A DNA stretch of 56,416 nt, from contig CAIMVM010000298.1 of the NCBI GenBank assembly GCA_903844895.1, forward strand, positions 1 through 56,416. Reading direction: 5' to 3'. The translations under genes and the position numbers were made by a program. The notes beneath the pieces were generated by a model. The model did no database searches and was not told where the DNA came from. It saw nothing but the letters and a program-made list of their open reading frames with translations. Each line of letters opens with the position of its first letter. Position 1 is the stretch's first letter. This document shows positions 4,757-56,416 of this stretch, piece by piece. This DNA comes from an uncultured Pseudomonadota bacterium. GTDB taxonomy: Bacteria > Bdellovibrionota_B > Oligoflexia > Oligoflexales > CAIMVM01.

Positions 4757-5632
4757 ATGAATTTTGATATTAAGAAATCTTTTCTATTTATTGACTCTAG
4801 TTTGTATCGAAGCTTCGCAAAGCGCACTGCATATGTCATTCCATGCTTGGTGGCTCCTTCCTTGAATCTCCCAGCGTTTTCAAAAGAAGTTGCTAAGAAA
4901 AAACTTAATTTGTCTGGGTCAAGTACGATTGCTCCCTTGGCAAGTGAACTTGCCAAAGCATTTGAAAAGAAGTTTCCCGAAAGTCGAGTGGATGTCCAAA
5001 GCGGGGGAAGTGCCCGTGGTCTATCTGATGCACGCAGCGGCCTTTCTGACATTGGTATGGTGTCGCGGGACTTAACGGAGAAAGAGGCGGATCTTCAAGG
5101 TACAGCCATTGCTTATGATGGCATTGCTATGATTGTTCATAGAGACAATCCGATTGTGGATTTAAACGACAAGCAAGTGGTAGCTATCTACACGGGGAAA
5201 ACAACAAACTGGAAAGAGCTAGGTGGTTCAGATCAAGAGATTACAGTTGTTAACAAAGCAGAAGGAAGATCTACTTTAGAGCTCTTTAGGCAGTTTTTTG
5301 TCTTAAAGAATTCAGATATCAAAGCCAAAATGATTGTTGGAGAAAACGAGCAAGCGATTAAGTTTGTAGGCGGAAACAAGTGGGCTATTGGGTATGTGTC
5401 GGTGGGAACCGCAGAATATGCTTCTAAAGTGTCTAAAACCATTAGGGCCATTCGCTTGAATGGAATCGATGCCAATCTTCAAAATGTCAAGAATAGAACC
5501 TATCCCTTGAGAAGAACCTTGAATTTCGTGACTTTAAAACCGACTTCGGAGGCAGCTCAAAAGTTTTTAGCGTTTGTAAAGGATCCGGCGGCTATCAGAA
5601 TTATTGAAGATCAATTCTTTGTGCCTTTATAA
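4757..5632 (+). CDS. pstS: Phosphate ABC transporter substrate-binding protein PstS
   Basis: The 291-residue product is a periplasmic type-II binding protein of the PstS family. After an unusually long basic/hydrophobic leader (about 43 residues) come LNLSGSSTIAPLASELAKAF, VDVQSGGSARGLSDARSGLSDIGMVSR and IAYDGIAMIVHRDNP. The GSST and SGG/SDIG loops supply the phosphate-binding backbone and side-chain contacts. GRSTLELF and IGYVSVGTA follow, as in the family. It is the first gene of a pstSCAB order and ends two bases before pstC. This gene looks intact, unlike the two permease genes downstream. Confidence 0.85.
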   Translation: MNFDIKKSFLFIDSSLYRSFAKRTAYVIPCLVAPSLNLPAFSKEVAKKKLNLSGSSTIAPLASELAKAFEKKFPESRVDVQSGGSARGLSDARSGLSDIGMVSRDLTEKEADLQGTAIAYDGIAMIVHRDNPIVDLNDKQVVAIYTGKTTNWKELGGSDQEITVVNKAEGRSTLELFRQFFVLKNSDIKAKMIVGENEQAIKFVGGNKWAIGYVSVGTAEYASKVSKTIRAIRLNGIDANLQNVKNRTYPLRRTLNFVTLKPTSEAAQKFLAFVKDPAAIRIIEDQFFVPL

Positions 5633-7405: not shown

Positions 7406-8236
7406 TTGCTTGACCTAATAGCGGCATCTGACGGAACGACTAGGCGGAAGTTGGATTTAAACTGTGTTCCTAATTCTTTTTTGACAGTTGAAAATCTCAC
7501 TGTTCTTAGAAGCTCAAAAAAAATTATAGAAGGAGTAGGCCTCAAAGCCCTTCCTGGCACCATAACAGCCATTGTCGGCCCGAGTGGCGTAGGAAAATCT
7601 ACTTTTCTAAAATCGATCAATCGAATTTTAGAAATAGAAGCTGCAACTCATTTTTTAGGAGATATTAAAATAGAGGGCGTTTCTATTTTTGACAAAAATA
7701 CAGATCTGCGCCGCCTTAGGCGAAAAGTAGGAATGGTTTTTCAAAAACCTACGCCCTCTCCTGTGAGCATATTTAAAAATATAGCGATTCCACTTTGTGA
7801 TGAGAGTCCTATGTCTAGGGCTGATTTAGACATTGCTATTGAATATAACTTGTCATCAGTGGGGCTTTGGGAAGAGGTTAAAGACAAATTGCATTCCTCA
7901 GCACTTTCTCTGTCTGGTGGTCAACAACAAAGACTTTGTATGGCGCGGGCTATGTCCCTCAGCCCGTCATTAATGTTGCTTGATGAACCTTGCAGTTCTT
8001 TAGATCCTATGTCCACAGCGATTATGGAACAGCTGCTCCTCGACTTGCGCAGTCAAACCACCATGCTCATCGTTACCCATAATCTGGCACAAGCAAAAAG
8101 GATTTCGGATCAAACGGCTCTTTTTTGGCCTGTTAATGGGGTAGGAAAATTGGTTGAGCTCTCTCGAACTAGGGAATTTTTTGGAAATCCTTCAAGTCTC
8201 GAGGCTAGAAGCTACGTGAATGGATTAAGCGGCTGA
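7406..8236 (+). CDS. pstB: Phosphate ABC transporter ATP-binding protein PstB
   Basis: The 276-residue ATPase starts at TTG 7406 after an AGGGGAGAA ribosome site. It has Walker A GPSGVGKST (58-66), a Q-loop (VFQKPTPSPVSIFKNIA) close to the PstB-specific P.SI..N, the signature LSGGQQQR, Walker B LMLLDEP and the H-loop THN. It would power phosphate import with PstC and PstA at the inner membrane. The gene is complete although both permeases are broken. The 72-base gap before it could hold an independent start of transcription, but I see no clear promoter. Confidence 0.85.
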   Translation: MLDLIAASDGTTRRKLDLNCVPNSFLTVENLTVLRSSKKIIEGVGLKALPGTITAIVGPSGVGKSTFLKSINRILEIEAATHFLGDIKIEGVSIFDKNTDLRRLRRKVGMVFQKPTPSPVSIFKNIAIPLCDESPMSRADLDIAIEYNLSSVGLWEEVKDKLHSSALSLSGGQQQRLCMARAMSLSPSLMLLDEPCSSLDPMSTAIMEQLLLDLRSQTTMLIVTHNLAQAKRISDQTALFWPVNGVGKLVELSRTREFFGNPSSLEARSYVNGLSG

Positions 8237-8237
8237 G

Positions 8238-8256
8238 GCCTTGGCGGAAGGCTTTT
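8238..8256 (+). terminator. Weak terminator-like hairpin after pstB
   Basis: GCCTT and AAGGC form a 5-bp stem with a GGCGG loop, followed by TTTT. It lies just after the pstB stop. The stem is short, so termination is only likely. Confidence 0.4.
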
Positions 8257-8445
8257 GCTGCTTGTTATAGAGTCACACATCCAAGGTTAGGATTTTTCTA
8301 GAGTTCGTTAAACATGCAGCTTTGGTCCGCCCTGAGACTCAAATGGATTTGGCGTTCTATCTTAAGGATGTTCTTTAAGAATCTGAATCCATGCCAGTTT
8401 CTAGTTCAAATTTTTGGGGGGCAGGCCGAATTCGTTTTCTACTTG

Positions 8446-8511
8446 TTCTCTGTTTGTTCTCTGTTTGTTCTCTGTTTGTTCTCTGTTTGTTCTCTGTTTG
8501 TTCTCTACTTG
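8446..8511. repeat. 11-bp tandem repeat, about six copies
   Basis: TTCTCTGTTTG is repeated five times perfectly from 8446 to 8500. A sixth copy (TTCTCTACTTG, 8501-8511) follows, and a diverged unit ending TACTTG precedes the array. The repeat lies in a 425-bp gap between pstB and an outer-membrane-type protein gene. The rest of that gap has no recognisable gene. An open frame through the array (8314-8535) encodes only repeat-derived hydrophobic sequence and is not supported as a gene. Confidence 0.9.
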
Positions 8512-8661
8512 CTAGGCACTATTCTGAGGTCATAAAGGACTTCTGAAACAAATTGTTGTTGTATTCTGCTTTAGTTTTGCATTGTTAGTCGCTATTTTGA
8601 CTATCCTCTTTTGCGGGTTGCCACGTTGTGGTATTGCTGTTCACTCATTTTAGGAGTTTTC

Positions 8662-9252
8662 ATGCAGAAATATGTTTTGGTTTTAGGATCGGTTTTTATG
8701 GGTTTAGGGGCGACTACGAGTTTTGCCGATGCAGTACCTGCGGCAAAATCTTGTGAGAATTTGAAGGCCGAGGTAGGCGTGTCATCGGCTGCATCAGAAT
8801 ATGATGGAATTAGAACTAGTGTTATGTCCCCTTGTCTCTTCGACAGAAATATCCAGCTGGGACTGATCTATGGTTTGATCAACTTTCCTTATTTAGGCGA
8901 CGAGGGGTGGGAAAGTGTTGTCGGGCACGAAGTTCTATTTTCCTTCAGCGTCAAGCAAGATTTGGTTGCGAACGAAAAATACACATCGGGCCTTAAAGTG
9001 CAGTTTGGATTTGGGACCGTGAGAGTGGAGTCGCAAAAATATAAGAATAAAGAGTTTGAAAAAGTAAAAATAAATTCCATTCCTGAAAGCGATTTGTCTA
9101 TTGGCTGGTATACCACATTTCAAAACTATGAAGGCAATGTAGGTCTTATTTCCCGGTACTTTAACAGCCTAGAAGCTTATAGCATCAAGAATGACCTTAT
9201 GCCCCAAAGAGACTTTGGCTATCAAGTTAGCATTTCCTACCTCATTAAGTAG
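8662..9252 (+). CDS. Secreted protein, probable small outer-membrane beta-barrel
   Basis: The start ATG at 8662 follows TTAGGAG and gives 196 residues. A signal peptide (MQKYVLVLGSVFMGLGATTSFA) precedes a mature protein built of alternating beta-strand patterns (FSFSVKQDLV, SGLKVQFGFGTVRVES, SIGWYTTFQNYEGNVGLISRYF, GYQVSISYLIK). The amphipathic strands and the final strand ending in a hydrophobic-rich segment suggest a small barrel. The family is not recognised. It is transcribed towards the convergent lipoprotein gene and shares a terminator hairpin with it. Confidence 0.6.
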   Translation: MQKYVLVLGSVFMGLGATTSFADAVPAAKSCENLKAEVGVSSAASEYDGIRTSVMSPCLFDRNIQLGLIYGLINFPYLGDEGWESVVGHEVLFSFSVKQDLVANEKYTSGLKVQFGFGTVRVESQKYKNKEFEKVKINSIPESDLSIGWYTTFQNYEGNVGLISRYFNSLEAYSIKNDLMPQRDFGYQVSISYLIK

Positions 9253-9291
9253 ATCTTGCAGGCCCATGTCGTGATGCGATGTTTCTTGAGC

Positions 9292-9310
9292 AAAAATCCT
9301 TAGGATTTTT
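9292..9310. terminator. Bidirectional terminator hairpin
   Basis: AAAAATCC and GGATTTTT form a perfect 8-bp stem with a TTA loop, A-rich on one side and T-rich on the other, between two convergent genes. The loop is the stop codon of the minus-strand lipoprotein gene. Confidence 0.65.
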
Positions 9311-9878
9311 CAAAAGCTCGATTAGGAAGCGATGTGGGTCTGGTTTCCGATTGAAGATAGATAGTACTTCCAAACCAAAGTTTTCCGGCTTCTATTTCAT
9401 AGATTTGTAGAACCTTTTCATCTGATGCAAAAGGGCGTCCCCAGCTTTGACAGGATTTTGCTTTTACAGATTCCGAAGTGTCGACGGACCAGGTGCTTAC
9501 GCCGCACAGGCTAAAATCAGAGAAGTTTTTTGCGGACTCAGTAGACTTAGGGGTGAGGGAAATCGTTTTCCATTCAAAATTGATATCTTTGCTGTTTGAA
9601 GCACTCTTCGAGTAGGTTCCACCGGCGTTGACGATGGTTTGCATATCTGTAAGACATGCGCTGTCAGAATAAAGTAGTTCCGTATACTTAACATCGGTTG
9701 CGGTGAAAACTACAGTGGACTTGCTATAATAGCTACTCATTAAAGACAAGACGGAAGGCTGACAGTCGCTATGTTTCCAGGTTCCTACTATGGAATCCAA
9801 CGAAGAGGATTTAGAAGTTCCGCAAGAAAGAGAAACAAGACTCAAAAGAGAAATGAAAGATATGTGATGAGTTATCAT
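9300..9878 (-). CDS. Lipoprotein of unknown function
   Basis: The ATG at 9878 gives 192 residues with a lipoprotein signal: MITHHISFISLLSLVSLSC, the lipidated Cys at 19, then GTSKSSS. The mature part starts with SIVGTWKHSDCQ, and I_GTW openings are common in lipocalin-like small lipoproteins. It has several Cys residues (DSACLTD, SLCGVS, KSCQSW) that could form disulfides in the periplasm. It starts ten bases after the hldE stop and is probably co-transcribed with it. A link to heptose metabolism is not supported. Confidence 0.6.
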   Translation of the reverse strand: MITHHISFISLLSLVSLSCGTSKSSSLDSIVGTWKHSDCQPSVLSLMSSYYSKSTVVFTATDVKYTELLYSDSACLTDMQTIVNAGGTYSKSASNSKDINFEWKTISLTPKSTESAKNFSDFSLCGVSTWSVDTSESVKAKSCQSWGRPFASDEKVLQIYEIEAGKLWFGSTIYLQSETRPTSLPNRAFEKS

Positions 9879-9888
9879 TATGAGAATC

Positions 9889-11376
9889 CTATTTTTTTTC
9901 TTGAGATTTTTGAATGATTTTGGATGTGGAAAGACCCTCGACGAGTTCAATCGTTTCTACCCGACCTCCGTGTTCTAATACAAAGTCACCACCTACAATT
10001 TTATCAACAGCCCAGTCAGCGCCTTTTATAAGGATATGAGGGCGAATGGCTTTGATGAGCTCCAAAGGGGTGTCGTCATCGAACTGGACGACGAAATCCA
10101 CGCAAGTTAGTCCTGCTAAAAGTCGAGCTCGCAGTTTTTCTTCGATAATCGGGCGCGTCGGGCCTTTGATGCGGGAAATCGACTGATCTGAGTTGATTCC
10201 GATGACGAGAACGTCACCTTTAGAACGGGCCTTTTCAAGGTAGGTTAAATGTCCGACATGCAGGATGTCAAAACATCCATTGGTGAAAACGATTTCTTTA
10301 GACCTAAAATTTGGAGACTTGAGTTGTTTGAGTAAGTGATCTAAATCCGTTACTTTTTTATCGGTTTGGGCAAATCTAACGGGCTGAGATCGATGGAGGT
10401 AGGCTTCGAGGAGCTCATGTTCATAGATCGGCTGGGTGCCCCATTTTTCAACAACTCTTCCAGCGGCAAGGTTAGCGAGGTCGATGGTGTCTTCATCAGA
10501 AGCTCCGGCAGCTAGCCCTAGTGCTACAATAGCGGCCACGGCGTCGCCAGCTCCAGACACATCAAAGACCTCTCTAGCTTCAGGTTGCCTGAAAATACTT
10601 GCAGCTTGTTCGCCTCTCACGAGCACCATGCCTTTAGCGCTCATGGTGACTAGGACCTGATTCAGTCCAAACTTGGCCTGTAAGGCTTGGCCGAGAGCTT
10701 CGCCAGATTGTCCATAGGGGACATCAAGTGCTTCGCTGGCTTCTTTAAGATTGGGGGTTACGACCCTTGCTCCTTTGTATTTAGAGAAATCCTTTCCTTT
10801 AGGGTCTACGACTACCGGAACGCCTCTTTCATTAGCTAGGGCAATCGCAGCCCGGATAAATCGGTCAGGGAGTGCACCTTTTCCATAGTCACTCACAAGG
10901 AGTGCCTCAAAGGTACTAGACCTCATTTTTTCAAGAAGCATGTCTTGTTGTTCATGGGTTATGGCTACGACCTTCTCCCAGTCGATTCTTACCAATTGCT
11001 GGCTGTTTGCCGTTACTCGAGTCTTTTTGGTTGTGGTTCGATCAGGAATGGAAATGATGCCATGGGTGGACATTCTGTCATTTTCTAAAATGCCGCATAA
11101 GGTTCTATAGGCGTCGTCATCTCCACCAATAGAAAAGAGGAGAGCTCGACCTCCCGCTAGCTGGATATTGCGAGCTGCGTTAGCAGCTCCACCAGCCGTC
11201 TGAGAGATGGACTTTACTAAGTGGACAGGTACTGGAGCTTCCGGTGAAATACGGTCGACGCTTCCATCTAAATATTCATCGAGTATCAAATCACCGATTA
11301 CGGCAACAGTAACTGGTGCGCCCTGATCGCGTTGTAAGGTCCAGGGGAGATTCACATTAGTCGTTTCCATTGTCAT
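9889..11376 (-). CDS. hldE: Bifunctional heptose 7-phosphate kinase / heptose 1-phosphate adenylyltransferase HldE
   Basis: HldE phosphorylates D-glycero-beta-D-manno-heptose 7-phosphate and, after dephosphorylation by GmhB, adenylates heptose 1-phosphate for LPS inner-core synthesis. The N-terminal two-thirds is a PfkB/ribokinase domain: VAVIGDLILDEYLDG near residue 25, GGAANAARNI, and the SGAGDAVAA anion hole with its catalytic Asp near 280. The C-terminal third is a nucleotidyltransferase with FTNGCFDILHVGHLTYL and GINSDQS. The start at 11376 (MTMETTN) fits family length at 495 residues; a longer frame reaches 11424. It is divergent from the flagellar operon. Confidence 0.93.
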   Translation of the reverse strand: MTMETTNVNLPWTLQRDQGAPVTVAVIGDLILDEYLDGSVDRISPEAPVPVHLVKSISQTAGGAANAARNIQLAGGRALLFSIGGDDDAYRTLCGILENDRMSTHGIISIPDRTTTKKTRVTANSQQLVRIDWEKVVAITHEQQDMLLEKMRSSTFEALLVSDYGKGALPDRFIRAAIALANERGVPVVVDPKGKDFSKYKGARVVTPNLKEASEALDVPYGQSGEALGQALQAKFGLNQVLVTMSAKGMVLVRGEQAASIFRQPEAREVFDVSGAGDAVAAIVALGLAAGASDEDTIDLANLAAGRVVEKWGTQPIYEHELLEAYLHRSQPVRFAQTDKKVTDLDHLLKQLKSPNFRSKEIVFTNGCFDILHVGHLTYLEKARSKGDVLVIGINSDQSISRIKGPTRPIIEEKLRARLLAGLTCVDFVVQFDDDTPLELIKAIRPHILIKGADWAVDKIVGGDFVLEHGGRVETIELVEGLSTSKIIQKSQEKK

Positions 11377-53884: not shown

Positions 53885-53960
53885 CGGGGTGTAGCGCAGT
53901 TGGTAGCGCGCGTGCTTTGGGAGCATGAGGTCGTAGGTTCGAGTCCTATCACCCCGACCA
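53885..53960 (+). tRNA. tRNA-Pro(UGG)
   Basis: CGGGGTG pairs with CACCCCG in the acceptor, followed by A and an encoded CCA. The D-arm AGCGCAGTTGGTAGCGCG, the anticodon arm CGTGC-TTTGGGA-GCATG with TGG at 34-36, and the T-arm with GGTTCGAGTCC are all intact. It reads proline CCA (and by wobble other CCN codons). The integrase gene ends 107 bases downstream, marking this tRNA as an integration site. Confidence 0.97.
53937..53960. other. Probable attachment site (3' end of tRNA-Pro)
   Basis: Tyrosine integrases next to a tRNA usually recombine at the T-loop/3' end of that tRNA. The integrase gene here lies immediately beyond the tRNA 3' end. No second copy of this stretch is found to the right end of the window, so the other boundary lies outside. 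The site is inferred, not seen as a repeat. Confidence 0.5.
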
Positions 53961-54067: not shown

Positions 54068-55138
54068 TTAGCTTGGGCGAGCTATTGCTTTGGCAAGGGT
54101 CAGGAGGCGATCATCGGTACGGTGGACATATCTTTGGGTTGTCTCAGCACTCTTGTGGCCAAGAAGCCGCCGGATATCTTCCAGGGAAGCTCCCCATCTA
54201 AACCAGATCTCTGAGCACGAGTGTCTGAGTTCATGGGGGGAAACCCGTTTGACCCCAGCTTCATCACAAAGCTTGCGAAGTCCGCCATGCAGCTTTTTAT
54301 ACTCGAGCATCCCACCTTTTAGTGCAGGGGCTGCGAATGCCATAGGAAAACGATGTTTGAAGCGATCTAAAAGAAAGTCCATTAAGACTCCGGGCATCGG
54401 CACCATCAACCAATCTTTTTGCTTTGGGTAGGGCTCGATCTTCCCAATGGTTCTCTTATAGGCCGCGCAAACCAGAATCTGACCTTTGTCAAAATCTACC
54501 GCTCTCCATTGCAAAGCTTGAATCTCTGAGGGCCTAAGGCCTGAAAGAATCGATATCCAAATTGCAGGTGCCAAATAGTGATTTTTGCAATGCTCCAAAA
54601 GTTTCCAAGAGTCTTCAGGTGTAAGGTAGGCCCTTTCCACCCGATGAATTTTAGGACGATCTTGTTTTAGCACTGGGGATTTCTGCAAGTATCCGTAGTA
54701 TTCAATGGCATCTTTAAAACACTGATTCAGTAAATTAAAAACGTGAAGTATCGATTGAGCTTTGAGCCCCTTTTCTCTCATAAGTTGCAAAATCCTGCCA
54801 ATATCGGGCGCATTGATGTCACGAAGTCGAAATCCTGCCAAAGCTCCTAAAACATAAGTGTCCGCCATTCGCTTTTGAGAGTCATACCAGCCTTTGGAAA
54901 CCTTTCCGCTCCGCATTGCTAACCATTCAGCAAAATAGACCTGAAACGTTAAGTTTCTAATGGTACCGATAGTTGCAAGCTCACCGCGCATACTTTTGTC
55001 TTTTAATTCTCTTTCGTAGGCTTCAGCATCTACTTTACGTTCGAAGGCCTTACCAGGAAAGTATCCCCTGTACTTGTCTTCGACTCGCACTAGATAGCTG
55101 ACGTTTCCTGTCTTGAGTCGTCTTTTTACAATTGCCAT
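54068..55138 (-). CDS. int: Tyrosine site-specific recombinase (phage-type integrase)
   Basis: The 356-residue protein has an arm/SAM-like N-terminal half (KGWYDSQKRMADTYVLGALAGFRLRDINAPDIGRIL). Its catalytic domain has Arg202 (SGLRPSEIQALQW), His302 and Arg305 (PHELRHS), His328 (LLGHKSAETT) and nucleophile Tyr337 (RYVH). The R-K-H-R-H-Y set is complete. It points at the tRNA-Pro 3' end, the classic layout of an integrated island or prophage. The excisionase-like gene lies upstream on the same strand. Confidence 0.95.
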   Translation of the reverse strand: MAIVKRRLKTGNVSYLVRVEDKYRGYFPGKAFERKVDAEAYERELKDKSMRGELATIGTIRNLTFQVYFAEWLAMRSGKVSKGWYDSQKRMADTYVLGALAGFRLRDINAPDIGRILQLMREKGLKAQSILHVFNLLNQCFKDAIEYYGYLQKSPVLKQDRPKIHRVERAYLTPEDSWKLLEHCKNHYLAPAIWISILSGLRPSEIQALQWRAVDFDKGQILVCAAYKRTIGKIEPYPKQKDWLMVPMPGVLMDFLLDRFKHRFPMAFAAPALKGGMLEYKKLHGGLRKLCDEAGVKRVSPHELRHSCSEIWFRWGASLEDIRRLLGHKSAETTQRYVHRTDDRLLTLAKAIARPS

Positions 55139-55271: not shown

Positions 55272-55436
55272 TTAAAATTCTTGAGCCTTGCTCCTATCCT
55301 TGAGCGCCGCTGGGTCAAATCTGAGAAGTCTCCCATGCTTTCGAAAGGGAATCCGTCTCTTTTGAACCCAAGAATAGACAGTTGACTGCTTCACGCCGAG
55401 AAAAGAGGCCGCCTCATTTAGATCAAGAAAAGGCAC
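55272..55436 (-). CDS. Excisionase-like HTH protein (HTH_17/MerR-type)
   Basis: The 54-residue frame starts at GTG 55436: PFLDLNEAASFLGVKQSTVYSWVQKRRIPFRKHGRLLRFDPAAL. This is the EAA..LGV...TVY.W...g.iP....g...rf....l pattern of small excisionases and related DNA-binding proteins. It lies upstream of int on the same strand, as xis often does. The GTG has no close ribosome site. ATG 55452 has AGAGGATAC before it but is out of frame and would fuse as MAKIE if one base were restored. The gene may therefore be frameshifted or coupled to the short frame upstream. Confidence 0.65.
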   Translation of the reverse strand: MPFLDLNEAASFLGVKQSTVYSWVQKRRIPFRKHGRLLRFDPAALKDRSKAQEF

Positions 55437-55512: not shown

Positions 55513-55925
55513 ACTTACGACCCTCTGAATTTATGTGCCCTCTAAAGCGCAGTTAGAAAAATGGTGATGGACTATCAAGTCTATTGAAAAGGTATTTTGA
55601 ATCAAAGCGCAGCTGGCCAATCGGGGGCAGGTTTAGCTTTGGAATCTTTCGGTTCGAAAAACTCGAGTCAATCATTGGCAGAAAATCTTTAGACAGCGCC
55701 TGAATCGACGATATTCTTAGTATCAGATTCATCGGCAATCATGTTTCTTACATTGCTTGACCTCCCATTTGCCCGGACCATAATTCCATTCCCATTAATT
55801 TTCTTGATCCGTAACTTCGTATTTTTATAACCCGCCTTTCTAAACTCATCCTTATCCACCACCACATCCCTTTCTCGTATCTAACCATCACCCTTCCATT
55901 CTTCCCTTTTTTATTCCTTCCTAAT
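55513..55925. other. Element DNA without a supported gene
   Basis: About 410 bases between the HTH leader and the foldback. A 61-codon minus-strand frame (55553-55738) has no family pattern. The 11-mer ATCAGATTCAT (plus strand) occurs at 55502-55512 and 55727-55737. The second half is T/C-rich. Confidence 0.4.
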
Positions 55926-56036
55926 CTGCCTCTGCCGACCCATTTTCATCCCCAGCTTGAGACCCCTTCCACCCACATCGTTGGGGGGGAGGGGTCTCAA
56001 GCGGCAGGGGGAACGAAAACATAACGGCAGAGGCAG
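55926..56036. repeat. Extended three-tier foldback (about 110 nt)
   Basis: The outer arms CTGCCTCTGCCG (55926-55937) and CGGCAGAGGCAG (56025-56036) are perfect complements. The inner arms GCTTGAGACCCC (55955-55966) and GGGGTCTCAAGC (55991-56002) are also perfect and extend about eight more pairs towards a small loop. Between the tiers, TTTTC and CCCC on the left face GGGG and GAAAA on the right. The right inner part is G-rich (seven, four and five G in runs). It lies 56 bases beyond the stop of the partial minus-strand gene. It may be a terminator, an origin/transfer site or a structured RNA. Confidence 0.85.
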
Positions 56037-56092: not shown

Positions 56093-56129
56093 TTATGTGT
56101 CGCCCCCTGCGACACATGATGCGACACAT
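56093..56129. repeat. Iteron-like GCGACACAT repeats
   Basis: GCGACACAT occurs at 56109-56117 and 56121-56129, a 12-bp step, and inverted as ATGTGTCGC at 56095-56103. The set spans the last codons and stop of the partial gene. Regular spacing and one inverted copy resemble binding sites for a replication or regulatory protein. Confidence 0.6.
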
Positions 56130-56416
56130 AAATCGTCTGGTTCATTCGGATACTTTTCGCAAATTTCATTGAGCAAAAAGACTTCATTGGCGATATTAAG
56201 TGGCGCTCTGATGGGATCTCTCGACCACTCGTTTGCTCTAACTAGGGCCACTCGATTCGACAGAACCTGATATCCAATTCTTTTAAGCTGTCTTTTTACA
56301 GACTCCAAAATGGCATCAGTCTCACAGACAAATATGACTAAAGAGAAATCTTCCTGTCCAGCATACAACCAAAGAATGTCACGATATCTTTCAGGAGATT
56401 TACGTTGCCTTTCAAA
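56093..56416 (-). CDS. Partial gene of the integrated element, unknown function
   Basis: The frame is open to the window's right edge, so the N-terminus is missing. The 107 visible residues have an alpha/beta pattern: ERYRDILWLYAG, FSLVIFVCETDAILESVKRQLKRIGYQVLSNRVALVRANEWSRDPIRAPL, and an acidic, Cys-containing tail. The ETDAILESVKRQLKRIG helix followed by a strand and a WSRDPIRAPL-like ending vaguely recalls the C-terminal part of plasmid/phage replication-relaxation proteins. That is a guess. Its stop lies in the iteron-like repeats. Confidence 0.5.
   Translation of the reverse strand, partial: FERQRKSPERYRDILWLYAGQEDFSLVIFVCETDAILESVKRQLKRIGYQVLSNRVALVRANEWSRDPIRAPLNIANEVFLLNEICEKYPNEPDDLCVASCVAGGDT

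Follow-up and report, generated by a model that had tools for sequence, protein, structure and literature searches.

The oriT of the enterococcal plasmid pAD1 contains a large inverted repeat beside short direct repeats. Its relaxase TraX, the prototype of the MOB_C family, binds direct repeats 70–120 bp from nic (PMC12857230). MOB_C relaxases, which include MobC of CloDF13, are related to the PD-(D/E)XK superfamily; no covalent DNA intermediate has been observed for them, and the repeats they bind are distant from nic (PMC12857230). Furthermore, the conserved inverted repeat region (IRR) hairpins of Spiroplasma citri pSci and S. kunkelii pSKU146, carried on plasmids with T4SS genes, were proposed in 2008 as transfer or replication signals (PMC2386487). 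In addition, the oriT of the integrative mobilizable element SGI1 is 125 bp long and GC-rich and contains inverted repeats (PMC6414798); a structured sgm-sRNA lies beside it (PMC9299015).

In our study, a candidate structure of this kind was found near the end of the window, that is, the whole 56,416-nt stretch of DNA that was analysed. The order in the window was tRNA-Pro(TGG), tyrosine integrase, HTH_17/excisionase-like gene, hairpin, and a gene open at the contig end. The features are as follows:

53885–53960, plus strand: tRNA-Pro(TGG), which likely serves for attachment; seven other contigs carry its 3′ end
54068–55138, minus strand: tyrosine integrase (PF00589, E 2e-20)
55272–55436, minus strand: excisionase-like HTH_17 protein (PF12728, E 2e-12; TIGR01764, E 3.5e-10)
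55846–55925, minus strand: stretch rich in purines 3′ of the hairpin, with 80% A+G on the mobC strand
55926–56036, minus (mobC-sense) strand: three-tier hairpin, candidate oriT core (folding; held-out covariance model)
55926–55937, no strand: outer arm, perfect 12-bp complement of 56025–56036
56025–56036, no strand: outer arm, perfect 12-bp complement of 55926–55937
55955–56002, minus strand: inner stem with two conserved mismatches and the apical loop (folding; mismatch pattern as in the G003 hairpins)
55979–55981, minus strand: apical ACG of the C[A/T]ACG tip, common to all family members (tip comparison)
56096–56128, no strand: octamer in three copies (TGTGTCGC at 56096–56103; GCGACACA at 56109–56116 and 56121–56128), candidate relaxase binding repeats within the 3′ end of the mobC-like gene
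56093–56416, minus strand: C-terminal part of a MobC/replication-relaxation protein, MOB_C relaxase-like (NF041423, E 0.0024; hhalign 94.4%, E 9e-8)

The sequence-only reading had described a three-tier foldback here, and the structure proved real. The 12-bp outer arms are exact, the middle tier has 13 contiguous pairs on the minus strand, compared with two 5-pair runs on the plus, and the inner stem has 13 + 2 + 4 pairs. Both inverted repeats were found again independently. The 111 nt of 55926–56036 folded to −74.5 (plus) and −75.6 (minus) kcal/mol, with z values of −10.0 and −9.1, respectively, and no dinucleotide shuffle equalled either strand. With 120-nt windows, it was the strongest fold of the whole sequence, at about −75 kcal/mol compared with −44 for the runner-up, a gap of about 31. 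The iteron-like repeats and the partial gene of the same reading were likewise present, the gene being incomplete because the contig ends at 56416.

The hairpin is single-copy in its own 4.2-Mb genome. A search for copies in this genome and 191 relatives returned only the hairpin itself and a 21-base chance match. The exact outer arms had no match in viral and GTDB contigs, and a search of plasmids and phages for similar DNA gave nothing useful. A viral contig with an exact 17-mer showed no hairpin at that place and was rejected as a chance match. Moreover, no target-site duplication was seen around the hairpin by inspection.

The gene beside the hairpin is, on its sequence, MobC/relaxase-like and of the MOB_C (restriction-endonuclease-like) family. 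The match of the fragment to NF041423 was below the curated cut-off and covered profile positions 164–226 of 240, and the profile–profile match of this gene fragment was obtained against seven MobC relatives. D186, E201, E203, and K207 are invariant in these seven. The fragment opens inside this motif, with the remainder beyond the contig, and the hhalign match starts right at the conserved E-x-x-x-K, with E and K aligned. Thus, the MOB_C gene adjoining the hairpin is represented in the window by a fragment, while a full-length MobC stands beside the hairpin in relatives. No coupling protein was visible in the window before the contig end. Scans of viral and genome contigs with the integrase and the MobC fragment returned no relatives.

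The 3′ end of the tRNA-Pro gene (53937–53960) recurs on the contigs C4, C10, C19, C58, C259, C317, and C343 of genome G000, one copy having two mismatches. Several of these contigs carry adjacent integrase remnants, which are 59–94% alike, and the tRNA-Pro site of this genome was apparently used by several elements or by an array. Another genome of the order (L036, G029:C33, positions 7959–10336) has a 65% identical integrase at tRNA-Pro(TGG) with an adjoining small HTH gene of similar type; no hairpin was present there in the 985 bases preceding the contig end. Related integrases of the order and the other contigs with the tRNA-Pro repeat also had no comparable adjoining hairpin.

Relatives of the hairpin were obtained from another family of the same order (G003), in three elements, C700, C21, and C924, all from one fragmented genome bin with 8% contamination. 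C700, which was reached via weak MobC matches, shows the same succession as the window: mobC comes first, then a small membrane-type ORF and a giant hairpin, and finally the HTH_17 and integrase genes. In C21, an ICE, genes resembling VirB4/TraC, VirB9, and TrbI, a coupling-protein gene, and mobC are followed by the hairpin, a small gene, and an integrase. The small gene resembles a ribbon-helix-helix protein by appearance, with no profile match. C924 starts just ahead of its hairpin, which is followed by a relative of this small gene. Accordingly, the hairpin was 3′ of mobC in two of the three elements (C700 and C21). The sequences of the outer and middle tiers are nearly wholly different among the window and G003 hairpins. 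They share the tier order and the [A/T]ACG loop, and near the tip a C.A mismatch is followed by one of C.U or C.C. The inner stem also bulges on its 5′ side, by about 4–6 nt in the window, C700, and C21, and by about 2 in C924. Short triplet repeats precede the hairpin in the window (TGTGTCGC) and in C21 and C924 (analogous TGTACA triplets) and are absent in C700. The G003 and Myxococcus elements are also purine-rich 3′ of the hairpin.

A lack of conserved pairing in homologous elements would have refuted the sequence-only reading; a covariance analysis in related elements found the pairing conserved, with compensatory changes. The model was trained on the three G003 sequences, with the window held out. 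The window hairpin scored 37.9 bits (E 2.6e-9) on the mobC-sense minus strand versus 15.1 on the plus strand. Among the three G003 sequences, the inner helix has 18 pairs, with none broken and five changed on both sides. For the entire structure, the covariation score was 0.377, compared with 0.137 for shuffled and 0.058–0.116 for slid alignments, in a small sample of three related sequences. A hairpin in G228 reached 38.7 bits, level with the window; it sits at the start of an unrelated gene and was discarded as a chance match. Since such a chance hairpin scores as the window does, context and tip bear the argument, not the score. A search of 12 genomes with the apex pattern, allowing three mismatches, gave about as many matches as a control pattern, and the C924 hairpin was the only new true one among the matches folded.

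With the G003-trained model, hairpins next to genes of the mobC type were also found on plasmids of Bdellovibrio and Myxococcus. Bdellovibrio sp. HAGR004 was reached by a coupling-protein search of plasmids. On the plasmids pBdHAGR4 and pBdHAGR5, mobC is immediately preceded by a hairpin of 32 pairs with a single mismatch, and on pBdHAGR1, ACCACCCACTCCCTACGA...GGTGGT directly precedes its own mobC. In the Myxococcus plasmid, a hairpin of roughly 140 nt lies about 750 nt upstream of the annotated replication-relaxation gene. The hairpins of the pBdHAGR and Myxococcus plasmids carry the same tip as the window family. Furthermore, tiered hairpins tipped with CACTCCCAACG or CAACGTAAA occur on Spiroplasma plasmids, mostly past the coupling-protein gene and one further gene; these scored weakly with the G003 model (17–19 bits), and most of the genes in the mob position were unrecognisable as MobC. 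A second, A+T-rich perfect hairpin of about 26 pairs comes right after the tiered one on the Spiroplasma plasmids L153–L157. A coupling-protein gene of the VirD4 type is in the cluster of the C21, HAGR, and Spiroplasma elements, while the window contig ends first. In every member with an identified mobC, the strand coding for this gene is the one that carries the ACG tip.

The C[A/T]ACG tip is rare among apical loops (6 of 303, known members counted in). The C924 and HAGR1 hairpins were found with the motif in hand and the Myxococcus hairpin with the model; therefore, these three are not independent support for the tip. The hairpins of HAGR4, pSKU146, and the S. ixodetis and D. atripex plasmids were found by energy scans alone.

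The association of MobC and hairpin was not general. Six other MobC elements of the order had no outlier hairpin. Elements of this bacterial order (L073, L074, and L105) repeatedly carry a module in which genes for a coupling protein and MobC are joined by a glycine-rich lipoprotein-like gene and a small RHH-like one; the module occurred with or without the hairpin, and its gene order was variable. In addition, E. faecium pEF7150-3 (L148) has a giant hairpin at 4966–5075 with about 23 inner pairs and a different tip, preceding an unnamed 263-aa gene and a coupling-protein gene.

A replication origin, a transfer origin, and a structured RNA had all been proposed by the sequence-only reading. 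The transfer origin was best supported, by the MobC-like neighbour and the recurrence beside mobC or transfer genes, and the other two were weaker. A non-coding RNA in the mobC sense, lying after or within the mobC mRNA and needed for or regulating transfer, seems unlikely. SGI1 offers a precedent, because it requires the sgm-sRNA encoded between mpsA and oriT (PMC9299015), and the constant position of the tip on the mobC strand would suit an RNA. The hairpin, however, is upstream of mobC on pBdHAGR and the Myxococcus plasmid and downstream elsewhere, a variation easier to reconcile with a DNA site than with a fixed transcript. In the window, C700, and C21, G-U pairs number 11 on the mobC-sense strand versus 5 on the other, a count in favour of RNA but ambiguous because C.A mismatches of the sense strand become G-U on the other. 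Moreover, no strong promoter was seen just upstream, and no Rfam family matched the hairpin. An Rfam scan of the window gave only the tRNA at gathering score, the microRNA-like matches being generic hairpins far below the cut-off, and identity with a known Rfam RNA family was thus rejected.

The constant neighbour of the hairpin is mobC or transfer genes, which argues against a replication origin (double- or single-strand) of the excised circle, acting instead of or besides an oriT. No replication gene was seen in the window, and several hairpin plasmids have ParA or separate replication genes. Such an origin is quite improbable here, even though long hairpins and repeats are usual at these sites, MobC-type proteins bear the name replication-relaxation, and a role in replication or conjugation signalling was suggested for the Spiroplasma inverted repeats (PMC2386487). 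A long imperfect palindrome between same-strand genes could also be an oversized transcription terminator or a MITE-like palindromic insertion with no transfer function. The same build in a similar place in several phyla, with compensatory changes, makes this highly improbable. A Rho-independent terminator was rejected, as the stem has no T run and no terminator-like site on either strand; a MITE or dispersed palindromic repeat was rejected because of the single copy, its absence in relatives, and the lack of a visible duplication. Three further identities were discarded. For a retron, no reverse transcriptase gene was in view on a contig that ends soon. An integron attC was rejected by eye, as the hairpin is without R′/R″ boxes. 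In an SGI1-type mobilization module, MpsA and MpsB would be present, but the adjacent gene is MobC-like, and no tyrosine recombinase was seen other than the integrase close to tRNA-Pro.

The window hairpin is thus probably the oriT core of an integrative conjugative or mobilizable element using a MOB_C-type (MobC/TraX) relaxase, judging from structure, conservation, compensatory changes, neighbours, and orientation. Because hairpins of the same build stand beside equivalent genes in three phyla, it is most likely a start of conjugative transfer. A DNA site for relaxase action would explain the tie of the hairpin to mobC, its occurrence on either side of the gene, and the nearby repeats. For repeat binding, nicking, the strand, and the role of the apex, we infer the following course. 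Int/Xis would excise the element from tRNA-Pro, and MobC, perhaps with a small DNA-binding helper, would bind the short repeats lying between mobC and hairpin. The long inverted repeat may then extrude, or fold as a single strand, and the apex, with C[A/T]ACG, the defined mismatches, and the 5′-side bulge, might present the site for recognition and nicking. The nicked strand would be handed to the coupling protein, and the hairpin could be reused for the ending and resealing of transfer.

It is also possible, though we put it forward tentatively, that a single structure-defined oriT class is common to MOB_C-type elements of Bdellovibrionota, Myxococcota, and Mollicutes. The class would be known by its fold and tip and not by sequence: a tiered hairpin tipped with C[A/T]ACG that has a 5′-side bulge or a side hairpin; sequence-based typing would consequently call its carriers non-mobilizable. 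PLSDB labels the examined Bdellovibrio, Myxococcus, and Spiroplasma plasmids non-mobilizable, and this label would be wrong if the oriT reading is true. MOB_C relaxases are among the least understood, and a conserved, alignable structure by the relaxase gene provides a concrete candidate site in several elements. The hairpin structure also offers a way of searching for oriT that does without sequence similarity. The Spiroplasma hairpins have already been published as possible transfer origins; according to a limited search of the open-access literature, the new part appears to be the structure and tip that link the MobC-type elements of the three phyla.

Compared with the known systems, the SGI1 oriT resembles the window hairpin in having inverted repeats in an integrative element, whereas its relaxase MpsA is tyrosine-recombinase-like and not MOB_C. 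CloDF13, with MobB as coupling protein and MobC as relaxase, is like the relatives found here, where a coupling protein is next to or near mobC. Unlike the window, the CloDF13 record has no outlier hairpin, a weak comparison because mobB and mobC are not annotated intact there. The hairpins of pSci2 and pSKU146, which may correspond to the published IR1–IR6, share the tiers and the CAACG tip with the window, but differ in the sequence outside the tip and in a mob-position gene that is mostly not recognisable as MobC. At the oriT of pAD1, direct repeats number five and nicking was shown by experiment, while the window has three octamer copies, one of them inverted. Compared by description, the two are alike in a MOB_C-type relaxase gene accompanied by short repeats, which TraX binds 70–120 bp from nic in pAD1 and which are candidate binding sites in the window.
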